Shown here: piece by piece, positions 27,157 to 32,066 of the stretch
How the letters are laid out: each line of letters starts with the position of its first letter
Position numbering within the stretch: position 1 is the stretch's first letter
Origin: Thermoanaerobaculia bacterium
Lineage (GTDB): Bacteria; Acidobacteriota; Thermoanaerobaculia; Multivoradales; JAHEKO01
Length of the DNA: 64,000 nt
NCBI GenBank assembly: GCA_945787575.1
Contig: CALZKB010000003.1
Location: forward strand, 1 to 64,000
Direction of reading: 5' to 3'
Notes under the pieces: generated by a model
Told to the model about the DNA's origin: nothing
The model's input: only the letters and a program-made list of their open reading frames with translations
The model's database searches: none
Translations under genes and position numbers: made by a program

Positions 27157-29307
27157 TTACGGCACGGTGTTGGACCAGGCCGAGGTGTCGCCGGACTCGA
27201 AGCCGTCGGTGAAGATGGTGAAGCCGGGGAGGCGCCACACCTCGCCGCCGGTGGGGTTATTTCCTGTCCCCGCATAGAGATTGGTGTGGTAGACGGCCAG
27301 CGTGGAAACGTCTTCGTTGATGCCGTCGCCGAAGCCGTCCAGGTTGGCCTGAATCCACCGTGCGCCGTCGTACCGCCAAATCTCTCCACCGCTATCGGCA
27401 TTGAAGGTTCCCGCATAGAGGTGGCCGTCGTGTGTGATCAACCAGAACGCGTCGTAATTACTGCCATCGCCGAAACCATCGGCGTTGACCTGGGTCCAGG
27501 TTGCGCCGTCGAATACCCACACTTCGGCTCCCGTCACCTCGTTGGTCGTTCCAGCGTAGAGAGAGCCGCCAAAGACCTCGAGGGACCCGATCTCCTCATT
27601 GTTGGCGTCACCGAAACCACTACTGCCGATCTGGCTCCAGGTGCTCCCGTCGTATCGCCACACCTCGGCTCCCGTTGCCGAGTTATGTGTCGGAGCATAG
27701 AGCTGGCCGTCGTACACGGCGAGGTCGAACGCATCGCGATTGTCGACATTGCCGAAGCCGTCCGTGTTGACCTGGCTCCAGATTGCGCCGTCAAGGCGCC
27801 AGATCTCAGCGCCGGTGATCTCGTTGCCGGTGCTCACGTAGAGGAAGCCGGCATACACGTCCATCCCGTAGGCGAAGTAGTTGTTGGCATCACCGAATCC
27901 ATCACTGTTGACCTGGGTCCAGTTCATGCCGTCATAGCTCCACAGTTCGGCCCCCGTGACTTCGTTGTAGGTGCCAGCGAAGAGAAGACCGTCGTAGACG
28001 GCTCGAGGAAAGGCGCCGAGGTTGTCCGCATCGCCTAGGCCGTCGCTGCCGGCCTGCGTCCAGGTCGCGCCATCGTAGCTCCAGACCTCGGCCCCGGTGA
28101 ACTCGTTCCAGGTACCCGCGAAGAGGCGCCCGTCGTAGGAGCTATCAGGGGAAACGGTTTCGTTCTGTGCGTTGCCGAATCCGCCGCTGCCGACCTGAGT
28201 CCATTCGAACCCCAGGAGACACCACACTTCGCCGCCGGTCGCGTTGTTCCGAGTTCCCATGAGAGGGCGGTCGCCGAAGGTGGCTGAAGTCCAGATCTGT
28301 ATGTTGTTGACATCGCCGAAGCCGTCGATGTTGGCTTGGGTCCAAGACGAGCCGTCGAAGCGCCAGACCCCTACCGCGGTCACCGCGTTGTTCGCTCCCA
28401 CATAGAGATAGCCGCCCCAGGCGTTCAACCCCTCGGCATCGGTGTTGTTGCTGTCGCCGAAGCCGTCGCTGTTGACCTGAGTCCAGTTCGAGCCGTCGAA
28501 CGCCCAGACCTCCGCGCCGGTCACTGTGTTGCCCGTCGACGCGTAGAGGGAACCGCCATAGACGGCGAGCGACCACGCCTTGGTGTTGTTCACATCGCCA
28601 AAGCCGGAGGTGTTGACTTGGGCCCAGTTGGCGCCGTCGTAGCTCCACACCTCGGCGCCGGTGACATCATTGCGGACCGCCGCATAGAGCGAGTCGCCGA
28701 AGACGACGAGCGCGGTCACCTCGCGGTTGTTGACGTCGCCGAAGCCGTCGGCGTTGGCTTGATCCCAGTTCACGCCGTCGTAGCTCCACACCTCGACCCC
28801 GGTAACGCCGTTGCTGACACCGGCAAAGAGCTCGCCGTCGTAGACCGCTTCGGGCATGGCGGTGGTGTTGTTCGCATCACCGAAGCCGTCGCTGTTGACC
28901 TGAGTCCAATCCGCCCCGTCGAAGCTCCACACCTCGGCCCCGGTGGTGCCATTGGTCGTGCCCACTAACAGCAGACCGTCATAGACGGTGCCGGGCCAGG
29001 TCACGATGTTCCCCGTGTCCCCGAAGCCACCGCTGGCGACTTGGGTCCAGGTCTGGCCGTCAAAGCTCCACACCTGCGCTCCGGCAGCCCCATTGAAGGT
29101 CCCCGCATAGAGCAGATCGCCATAGACGGCGCCCAGGACGGCGGTCCTGTTGTTCCCATCCCCGAAGCCACCGCCGCTCAACTGCAGCCAGTCTTCGGGA
29201 TCGGCCGCAGGCCGGTGGGCGAGCTCCACCGGGCTCGCGGGCAGCGCCACGGCGAGGGTGAATCCAACTACAGCAAGGATGGAACGAACTCTCGGTTTGA
29301 GTCTCAT
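27157..29307 (-). CDS. Secreted repeat protein: 14 tandem ~43-aa propeller repeats plus C-terminal tag
   Basis: Signal peptide MRLKPRVRSILAVVGFTLAVALPASP; repeats of SDGFGDANN..AVYDGxLFAGTxNxVTGAEVWSYDGxxWTQVN; C-term FTDGFESGDTSAWSNTVP*. Confidence 0.85.
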   Translation of the reverse strand: MRLKPRVRSILAVVGFTLAVALPASPVELAHRPAADPEDWLQLSGGGFGDGNNRTAVLGAVYGDLLYAGTFNGAAGAQVWSFDGQTWTQVASGGFGDTGNIVTWPGTVYDGLLLVGTTNGTTGAEVWSFDGADWTQVNSDGFGDANNTTAMPEAVYDGELFAGVSNGVTGVEVWSYDGVNWDQANADGFGDVNNREVTALVVFGDSLYAAVRNDVTGAEVWSYDGANWAQVNTSGFGDVNNTKAWSLAVYGGSLYASTGNTVTGAEVWAFDGSNWTQVNSDGFGDSNNTDAEGLNAWGGYLYVGANNAVTAVGVWRFDGSSWTQANIDGFGDVNNIQIWTSATFGDRPLMGTRNNATGGEVWCLLGFEWTQVGSGGFGNAQNETVSPDSSYDGRLFAGTWNEFTGAEVWSYDGATWTQAGSDGLGDADNLGAFPRAVYDGLLFAGTYNEVTGAELWSYDGMNWTQVNSDGFGDANNYFAYGMDVYAGFLYVSTGNEITGAEIWRLDGAIWSQVNTDGFGNVDNRDAFDLAVYDGQLYAPTHNSATGAEVWRYDGSTWSQIGSSGFGDANNEEIGSLEVFGGSLYAGTTNEVTGAEVWVFDGATWTQVNADGFGDGSNYDAFWLITHDGHLYAGTFNADSGGEIWRYDGARWIQANLDGFGDGINEDVSTLAVYHTNLYAGTGNNPTGGEVWRLPGFTIFTDGFESGDTSAWSNTVP
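27250..29200 (-). repeat. 14x ~129-bp tandem coding repeat
   Basis: Recurring GFGDxNN / TGAEVWxxDGxxWTQ periodicity. Confidence 0.85.
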
Positions 29308-29343
29308 GGCACAGATCCTCCTCCTTGTCGGTTGCGGAAGGTG

Positions 29344-29455
29344 GGTACCTTCGGCAGCCCGGCTGTCGTGGGATCTGCGGGGCGGCGTCCGCCGCCGCAA
29401 GAAGCGAGGACCCGTGGCTTTGCGGCACCGGCTTTTGCCGGTTGTGCCTTTATCG
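29344..29455 (-). ncRNA. GEMM-I cyclic dinucleotide riboswitch aptamer
   Basis: AAAGGCACAACCGGCAAAAGCCGGTGCCGCAAAGCCACGGGTCC...GGCGGCGGACGCCGCC...ACAGCCGGGCTGCCGAAGGTACC; contains GCAAAGCC and AGCCGGGCTGCCGAAG GEMM hallmarks. Confidence 0.85.
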
Positions 29456-29548
29456 AAGCGTCCTCTAAGTGGACAGCCTCGGAACGATTCGACCAGACCC
29501 GACAGGGTGGGCCGAACCACCACCCCTTTGGATGGGTTGAACGGGTGC

Positions 29549-29731
29549 CTAGTCGCCGCTCGCCAGCGACTCGCGCTTGTCGATCGCCGCTTGGGCCGCG
29601 GTGCCGACGGCGCAGGCGGAGCACGGCGGCTGGTTGCGGTCTCGCCGGGGCACGAGCTGGCGGACGAGCGCCCAGAGTCCCCACGCCGCAGCGACGGTGA
29701 CGAGCCAGAACTGCCAGTCGCGCCAAGGCAT
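29549..29731 (-). CDS. FeoB-associated Cys-containing small membrane protein
   Basis: Overlaps the feoB stop; MPWRDWQFWLVTVAAAWGLWALVRQL...CSACAVG. Confidence 0.6.
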   Translation of the reverse strand: MPWRDWQFWLVTVAAAWGLWALVRQLVPRRDRNQPPCSACAVGTAAQAAIDKRESLASGD

Positions 29732-31764
29732 CAAGCGACTCCCACGAGGTGCAGCCCCTGATAGGTGGCGAAGGCGAAGATCCACGCGAGACCGCTCATC
29801 CACAAGAACTGGAGCACCGCCCAACGCCAGGCGCCGGTCTCGCGGCGAGTGACGACCAAGGTCGGCAGGCACTGCATGGCGAGGACGAAGAAGACCAACA
29901 AGCTGGCCGCGGTCGCCGTCGTGAACAGCGCCGTTCCGTCGTCGCGCCGCGCGTCACGAACCCGCGAGAAGACGCCCTCGTCCGCCGGGTCGTCGACCTC
30001 CTCGCCGGTGATCAGAACGGCCAGGGTCGACACGAAGACCTCGCGCGCGAGAAAGCTGGTGAGCACCCCGACCGTCAACTGCCAGTCGTAACCCAGAGGC
30101 GCGTAGATCGGCTGGATGAGCCGGCCCAGACGGCCGGCGAAGCTCGCCGCCTGCCGATGCGGCGCCTCGAGGCTCGCCGCCTCGGCGGTCAGCTCGAGCG
30201 CCCGGTCGGGATCGCTGGCTTCGATCGCCACCGCTTCGGCGCGCAGCGCCTCCGCTTCCGGAGGCGCCTCGACCTTGGGATAAGCCGACAGCCACCACAT
30301 CACGATGCAGATGGCGAGAATGACGGTGCCCGCCTTCTGCAGGAATGTCTTGCCCTGCTGGTAGGCGGTGAGCACGGCGGTCCGCAACGCCGGCAGCTTG
30401 TACGACGGCAGCTCCAGAACCATCGGTCGCGAGTGACCCTTGAGCAGCGTGCGGCGGGCCACGAGAGCACTCGTCATCGCCGCCAGCGCCCCCAGCAGGT
30501 AACAGCCGGTAAACGCCAGACCCGCCATCAGCGGCCGGTCGCGGAAGAGCAGACTGGTGAGCAAGATGTAGACCGGCAGACGGGCCGAACAGCTCATGAA
30601 GGGTGCGACCAGGATCGTGGCCAGGCGGTCGCGGCGATCGGGAATCAGGCTGGTAGAGAGGATTCCCGGTATCGCGCAGGCGTGGCTCGACAGCAGGGGG
30701 ACGAAGGCGTGACCCGGCAGCCCGAAGCGGCACAGGAGCCGGTCGGTGACGAACGCCGCGCGCGCCAGATAGCCGGTGTCTTCGAGCAGGCTGATGAGGA
30801 AGAACAGCAGGCAGATCTGCGGCAGGAAGACCACGGTCCCGGCGATGCCGGCGATGATCCCGTTGGAGAGCAGGTCGCGCACCGCGCCGGCCGGCAGGGT
30901 CGCTCGCACCCAATCGCCCATCACGTCGAAAGTCAGGTCGATCAGATCCATCGGAATCGTCGCGAGGGCGAAGACCGTCCAGAACAGTCCCGCCATCACC
31001 ACCGCGAAGAGCAGGACACCGAGGACCGAGTGGGTGAATGCCTGGTCGAGCCGCTCGGTGAGCGTGTCGCCGCCGCTGCCGACGGCACCCTCGCCGCCGA
31101 CACTCTCCTCCACGACGCGGTCGGCCCAATCGAGCAGCGCGTCGCCGTCGGCGAGGTCCGGCACCGGCAGCTCGGGGGTAACCGGCGGCGTACCCAACGC
31201 CGAGGCGAGGGTGAGCCGCAGCTCCTCCACTCCCCGGCCGCTGCGGGCGACCACCGGCACTACCGGACAGCCGAGGAGCTGCCCGATGCGGACGGGGTCG
31301 AGCGTCAGTCCGCGCCGTTGCGCGAGGTCGACCATGTTGAGGGCGACGATGGTCGGCACCCCGATGCCGAGCAGTTCGCCGACCAAGCACAGGCTGCGGG
31401 AGAGGTTGGTGGCATCGGCGACCACGATCGCGGCATCCGGCTGACGGTAGACCCCCTCGCCTTCGAGGACGGCGCGGCAGATCCGCGCCTCCGGCAGCTC
31501 GAGGAAGAGGCGGTAGGTTCCGGGCAGGTCGACGATCTCGGCCGCCTCGCCAGACTCGTCGGCCAGCTGGAAGCGGCCAACTCGCGCGTCGGTCGTGGTC
31601 CCGGGAAAATTGGCGGTCTTCGCACGCAGACCGCAAAGCCGGTTGAAGAGCGTCGTCTTGCCGGTGTTCGGCGCGCCGAGGAGGGCGACCCGAATGCGAC
31701 GCGCGCTCGAGGCGGCGACGACCGCCTTCTCCTCCTCTGCCCGCCAAGGGGCAGCCGTGCTCAT
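29731..31764 (-). CDS. feoB: Ferrous iron transport protein B
   Basis: G-domain GAPNTGKTTLFNRLCG, DLPGTYRL, NMVD; C-terminal Gate-type TM region. Confidence 0.95.
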   Translation of the reverse strand: MSTAAPWRAEEEKAVVAASSARRIRVALLGAPNTGKTTLFNRLCGLRAKTANFPGTTTDARVGRFQLADESGEAAEIVDLPGTYRLFLELPEARICRAVLEGEGVYRQPDAAIVVADATNLSRSLCLVGELLGIGVPTIVALNMVDLAQRRGLTLDPVRIGQLLGCPVVPVVARSGRGVEELRLTLASALGTPPVTPELPVPDLADGDALLDWADRVVEESVGGEGAVGSGGDTLTERLDQAFTHSVLGVLLFAVVMAGLFWTVFALATIPMDLIDLTFDVMGDWVRATLPAGAVRDLLSNGIIAGIAGTVVFLPQICLLFFLISLLEDTGYLARAAFVTDRLLCRFGLPGHAFVPLLSSHACAIPGILSTSLIPDRRDRLATILVAPFMSCSARLPVYILLTSLLFRDRPLMAGLAFTGCYLLGALAAMTSALVARRTLLKGHSRPMVLELPSYKLPALRTAVLTAYQQGKTFLQKAGTVILAICIVMWWLSAYPKVEAPPEAEALRAEAVAIEASDPDRALELTAEAASLEAPHRQAASFAGRLGRLIQPIYAPLGYDWQLTVGVLTSFLAREVFVSTLAVLITGEEVDDPADEGVFSRVRDARRDDGTALFTTATAASLLVFFVLAMQCLPTLVVTRRETGAWRWAVLQFLWMSGLAWIFAFATYQGLHLVGVA

Positions 31765-32066
31765 CCTCCGACCGGGAGCTCCGACGAGGAGTCGTCGACG
31801 GGCTCGACCATGAGACGCTCGGCGATCGCCTCGGAGAGGCCGACGCGCATGCCGCGCACCTCGACGATGCACAGCGACCCGGTCTTGCAGACGAAGAGGC
31901 GCCGGTCAGGGGTCAGCCCAAGAGCGGTGAGTAGATCCCGATCGGAGTCGCGAAGATCACTCGCGCGCAGTCGCGCGGTGGTCCCTTCGGGCACTAAGGT
32001 GAGGGGAAGCCAAGCGTCCGGCCGAGGGGAGGGGAATCGCCTGCTAGCGGGCTGAGAGGAGATCAT
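31761..32066 (-). CDS. feoA: Ferrous iron transport protein A
   Basis: Small SH3-like protein overlapping the feoB start (ATGA). Confidence 0.85.
   Translation of the reverse strand: MISSQPASRRFPSPRPDAWLPLTLVPEGTTARLRASDLRDSDRDLLTALGLTPDRRLFVCKTGSLCIVEVRGMRVGLSEAIAERLMVEPVDDSSSELPVGG

Follow-up and report, generated by a model that had tools for sequence, protein, structure and literature searches.

What does the 5′ leader of the repeat-protein gene at 27157..29307 sense, and in which direction does it act on its gene? The gene lies on the minus strand of the window (the whole stretch of DNA analysed, 64 kb). In front of it the initial annotation had placed a GEMM-I riboswitch for c-di-GMP or 3′,3′-cGAMP at 29344-29455, with emphasis on the C-terminal tag of the encoded protein. 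The following features of the locus are referred to below.

29349..29457, minus strand: c-di-GMP-I (GEMM-I) aptamer, whole, above gathering scores with both RF03167 and RF01051
29454..29458, minus strand: P1 5′ strand CUUCG, pairing with CGAAG at 29349-29353 (sequence and pairing checked)
29427..29442, minus strand: P2 hairpin ACCGGC-AAAA-GCCGGU, loop AAAA and not GNRA, with compensatory changes in 72 family copies
29356..29419, minus strand: P3 arm AGCC.A.CGG.GUC / GAC.AG.CCG.GGCU with extended loop, from the Rfam alignment and family copies
29448, minus strand: G20 equivalent in Vc2 numbering (gapless Vc2 alignment), contacts one ligand guanine, G in 67 of 72 family copies
29421, minus strand: A47 equivalent, stacks between both ligand bases, A in 70 of 72 family copies
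29354, minus strand: C92 equivalent, pairs with the other ligand guanine, C in 71 of 72 family copies
29406..29416, minus strand: P3 5′ strand CACGGGUCCUC, predicted anti-Shine-Dalgarno strand of the free fold, 11 contiguous pairs with GAGGAUCUGUG
29310..29326, minus strand: Shine-Dalgarno (SD) sequence AAGGAGGAGG plus the AUCUGUG after it, both hidden by pairing in the predicted free fold
29492..29510, minus strand: promoter-like palindrome CCACCC-TGTC-GGGTCTGGT, upstream of the aptamer at the distance seen in most family copies (53 nt)
27157..29307, minus strand: target gene for a 716-aa secreted protein with signal peptide, 14 repeats W(T/S)Q...GFGD..N and C-terminal FTDGFESGDTSAWSNTVP

Identity of the aptamer and its ligand subtype

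The covariance-model search proposed in the initial annotation bears out the GEMM-I assignment. The complete aptamer runs from 29457 to 29349 on the minus strand and reaches 62.0 bits with RF01051, 27 bits above the gathering cut-off of 35, as well as 66.9 bits (E 1.2e-13) with RF03167, whose cut-off is 59 and which gives the highest score within the clan. It is the sole Rfam match of the 64-kb window that reaches gathering scores. The layout was also found as described, with the P2 hairpin, GCAAAGCCACGGG, the P3 arm and AGCCGGGCUGCCGAAG all in place.

Conservation was assessed on 72 family aptamers with equal 5′ spacing. Of the six base pairs of P2, the outermost is retained in 63 copies, the innermost in 69 and the other four in 70-72, with two-sided changes, and a slid register of P2 is mostly broken in the same copies. 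The many compensatory changes lend independent support to the structure. The P2 loop reads AAAA in 21 of the 72 copies, including that of the window, and GAAA in 24. Docking of a GNRA tetraloop in P2 on a receptor in P3 stabilises the fold and is common in c-di-GMP-I aptamers but not obligatory; the window copy, with its AAAA loop, lacks this feature. Judged by its sequence and conserved pairing, the window aptamer is a real c-di-GMP-I riboswitch, i.e. a further copy of a known sensor and not a new kind.

In the gapless alignment, which we take to give the correct Vc2 numbering, G20, A47 and C92 form the canonical c-di-GMP contact set, from which we infer c-di-GMP as the ligand. Following its best Rfam label, the aptamer would instead be a c-di-GMP-I-GGC variant with another ligand. 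This is very unlikely: RF03167 does give the top score of its clan, but position 47 (the defining base, as read from the name and the Rfam consensus) is G in the variant and A in the window copy and in nearly all family copies, and RF01051 is passed as well by the margin given above. The GGC subtype was rejected on the A at 29421, and by this base the top label is a mislabel of the aptamer's subtype. Such a label can mislead about the ligand. Two family copies (L147 and L171) carry G47.

An adenine at position 20 is associated with cGAMP-selective GEMM-Ib aptamers. The specificity base singled out in the initial annotation proved to be G, as in most of the family, so that the 3′,3′-cGAMP option is disfavoured for the window copy and the GEMM-Ib subtype was rejected on this contact. 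The enzymes that would make the signal bear on the same question. The host genome holds 21 GGDEF domain matches, and c-di-GMP is therefore very likely made; the diagnostic Hypr position is readable in 15 GGDEF loci, with Asp in 14, which argues against a cGAMP switch, and Ser in one (contig C29), which together with A20 in three family copies speaks for it. In the C29 protein (L263/L269, G000:C29:5300-5821) the GGDEF domain lies behind a GAF-like region; it has a GGDEF motif and Ser at the Hypr position, a combination published as the Hypr signature (PMC6456294), and the protein is a candidate cGAMP synthase. The host may thus make both c-di-GMP and cGAMP. Since position 20 influences selectivity without acting as a hard filter (PMC9262584) and one Hypr-type candidate is encoded, some binding of cGAMP by the window copy is possible, while a riboswitch dedicated to 3′,3′-cGAMP is very unlikely here. 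Elsewhere, the A20 family copies L125, L145 and L162 are candidate cGAMP-type switches, as is the host aptamer on contig C185 (L184, G000:C185), in which a one-base deletion at the position-20 site can be read as A20.

Predicted switching mechanism

As annotated initially, an SD sequence and a start codon follow the aptamer, with the ATG (29307) 41 nt past its end. With the alternative, longer reading from a GTG start at 29523 in the ORF list, the aptamer would become coding sequence and the signal peptide would no longer be N-terminal. A Pfam search with the target protein gave no family at E 0.01, an ELWxxDGT repeat matched weakly below its cut-off, and AlphaFold from the single sequence reached a pLDDT of 37, so that the propeller fold is putative. 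Directly upstream, feoA, feoB and a small ORF are found in the same direction (window 29549-32066, minus strand).

A scan between aptamer and gene returned no terminator-like site. Transcription termination was rejected on this ground, in support of the translational control proposed earlier. In the minimum-energy fold of the leader, the 11 consecutive pairs between the P3 5′ strand and the SD region are followed by pairing of CUUCUUG with CAAGGAG, and P1 is replaced by GAAGG/CCUUC. The probability that the SD is unpaired amounts to 0.004 in this free fold and to 0.28 with the aptamer pairs forced. At −33.4 kcal/mol the P3:SD duplex is the best among 65 family copies (the next reaching −25.3), and among SD-preserving shuffles 0.2% attain this energy; the pairing is much weaker in the sister-species copy (−17.6). 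With the aptamer fold 14.7 kcal/mol less stable than the free fold, any switching would have to be kinetic and take place during transcription.

Because a P3 strand of the aptamer itself masks the ribosome-binding site in the fold predicted without ligand, the ligand most likely turns translation on. Without ligand, two pairings would hide the start site: that of the P3 5′ strand CACGGGUCCUCGCUUCUUG with CAAGGAGGAGGAUCUGUG of the ribosome-binding site, and that of GAAGG, the P1 3′ strand, with ACCUUC just downstream. Binding of c-di-GMP during transcription would hold P1 and P3 together and leave the ribosome-binding site freer, and the repeat protein would be made at high c-di-GMP. The locus is therefore read, with modest confidence, as a c-di-GMP-I riboswitch at or near the mRNA 5′ end of an exported repeat protein that acts on translation and is ON with ligand. 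The ON direction, the function in vivo and the function of the repeat protein are likewise inferred.

The main rival uses the same c-di-GMP aptamer as an OFF switch, in which ligand-stabilised P1 would free ACCUUCC to pair with GGAGG and so block translation. The elements for this are at hand, namely a perfect 6-bp hairpin of the P1 3′ strand with ACCUUC that competes with P1, and a CCUUC able to pair with GGAGG; moreover, even when the aptamer fold is forced, the SD remains 72% paired. However, exposure of the SD goes up, not down, when the aptamer pairs are forced, and in a tally of 59 family copies only one is OFF-like compared with 18 that are ON-like. An OFF switch is accordingly considered unlikely, and an ON switch remains the preferred reading.

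Across the family, own P3:SD pairs are no better than swapped ones (p 0.175, co-variation not significant), and changes in SD exposure show no difference between own and swapped leaders, so that the switch geometry is not established as selected copy by copy. On the same leaders, SD exposure gains 0.21 upon folding of family aptamers versus 0.10 for other-phylum aptamers, and an anti-SD-like word occurs in the P3 loop of 63% versus 9%, respectively; given that the aptamer-leader pairings are non-independent and the P3 arm is C-rich, these differences are suggestive only. Part of the P3:SD effect may follow from the C-rich P3 arm.

Further copies, their targets and the upstream block

In the host genome (5.59 Mb on 484 contigs) 11 aptamers were detected, an identical set with RF03167 and RF01051. 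Among 59 genomes comprising the host and its relatives, 29 contain matches, which are sparse outside the family; within it 16 of 18 genomes have matches, with up to 21 aptamers in one genome. In most family copies 11-130 nt separate the aptamer from the start of the downstream gene, which usually has a good ribosome-binding site. On contig C22 of the host (L221, G000:C22:7518) a palindrome and then a degenerate aptamer-like GCAAGGCCACGGGTCCTC precede a signal-peptide gene, possibly a decayed twelfth host copy missed by both models. Two gammaproteobacterial MAG contigs (L035 and L057) show the same unusual P3 sequence (CTCGCTTCCTCC...GAAGGACCCAAGAT) as the host family.

By a crude signal-peptide score, 55 of the 66 confident family targets (~83%) look exported, compared with 8 of 43 background ORFs (19%) taken from the 64-kb window. 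The host targets, assigned by eye and not by domain search, comprise the repeat protein of the window, VCBS/FG-GAP-like repeat proteins and one protein each of cytochrome-peroxidase-like, esterase-like, TonB-receptor-like and Calx-beta type. The same aptamer would thus serve about ten other host genes, nearly all of them for exported proteins.

The emphasis laid on the C-terminal tag was not sustained as a rule. Tags of the DGFESGD(T)SAW type occur at 76 sites in the host genome (window 27175-27207 and 75 others), with 0 sites for the reversed pattern, and the DGFESGD...W tag is a candidate sorting signal. It follows four of the 11 host riboswitch loci, on contigs C3, C52 and C118 and, behind a broken frame, on C95, hence three to four tagged targets, and most tagged host genes have no riboswitch. 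On C95 (G000:C95:1-2325) the riboswitch precedes a 177-aa frame that is cut short, with the tagged sequence following in the same direction, as expected of either a broken gene or an assembly error. In a sister species (G001:C284) an aptamer of 77% DNA identity stands directly before a homologue of the repeat protein (48% protein identity); this homologue has no C-terminal tag, and feoA, feoB and the TPR neighbours are absent within the 19.6 kb examined. Control is therefore independent of the tag, and the unit kept by evolution is the aptamer together with the repeat protein. Both species also share a cytochrome-peroxidase-like gene that has the same aptamer. Tag-specific control was rejected on the untagged homologue and the many tagged genes lacking a riboswitch; as far as can be judged from the predicted signal peptides, what the riboswitch targets have in common is export and not the tag.

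Most family aptamers are preceded at ~50-55 nt by a palindrome CC(A/G)CCC-N4-GGGTGG(YGC) and at ~10-15 nt by a TAAnnT-like hexamer. With a pattern drawn from the same sequences that it scored, 61 of 90 upstream regions reach a block score of at least 12 out of 18 in the 110 nt closest to the aptamer, compared with 11 of 89 in the adjoining 110 nt farther out. Since genes lacking an aptamer can have similar blocks in front of them as well, the block resembles a clade-specific type of promoter, or an operator, rather than a part of the riboswitch. The window copy has a degenerate −10-like part, and no promoter of the E. coli type turned up in a scan. Just upstream of the first palindrome lies another of similar sequence, CCCATCC-AAA-GGGGTGG (window 29520-29536, minus strand).

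It is possible, if rather doubtful, that the family has built a secretome-wide c-di-GMP regulon in which a compact cassette, composed of the promoter-like palindromic block and an aptamer whose P3 arm doubles as anti-Shine-Dalgarno, has been placed before 10-20 unrelated exported proteins with translation ON at high c-di-GMP, the few A20 copies being perhaps retuned to cGAMP from a Hypr GGDEF enzyme. Such a family-wide regulon with its shared promoter-like block would be the interesting part of the system. For a group of exported proteins of unassigned function this offers a ligand that can be checked and a prediction of the direction in which they are controlled; if an aptamer strand does serve as anti-Shine-Dalgarno, simple point mutations would suffice to test the switching.

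Comparison with known systems

In the library searched, no published study of c-di-GMP riboswitches was found for acidobacteria, the lineage to which the host is assumed to belong. With Vc2 of Vibrio cholerae (c-di-GMP-I, RF01051) the window aptamer shares the three-way architecture with P1-P3, the contact bases G20, A47 and C92 and the position in a 5′ leader, whereas its P2 loop is AAAA instead of GNRA. Its P3 carries UCCUCGCUUC, while most other-phylum c-di-GMP-I copies possess a receptor-like loop UAAGG...CUAUGA. From c-di-GMP-I-GGC (RF03167), the top-scoring model, it differs at position 47 (A in the window, G in the model). The cGAMP riboswitches of the GEMM-Ib type from Geobacter (PMC6456294, PMC8835794) likewise precede genes for surface and secreted proteins and are present many times per genome. 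Unlike these, the window copy has G20 and no terminator, and the targets of the host family as a set are not c-type cytochrome or pilus operons.
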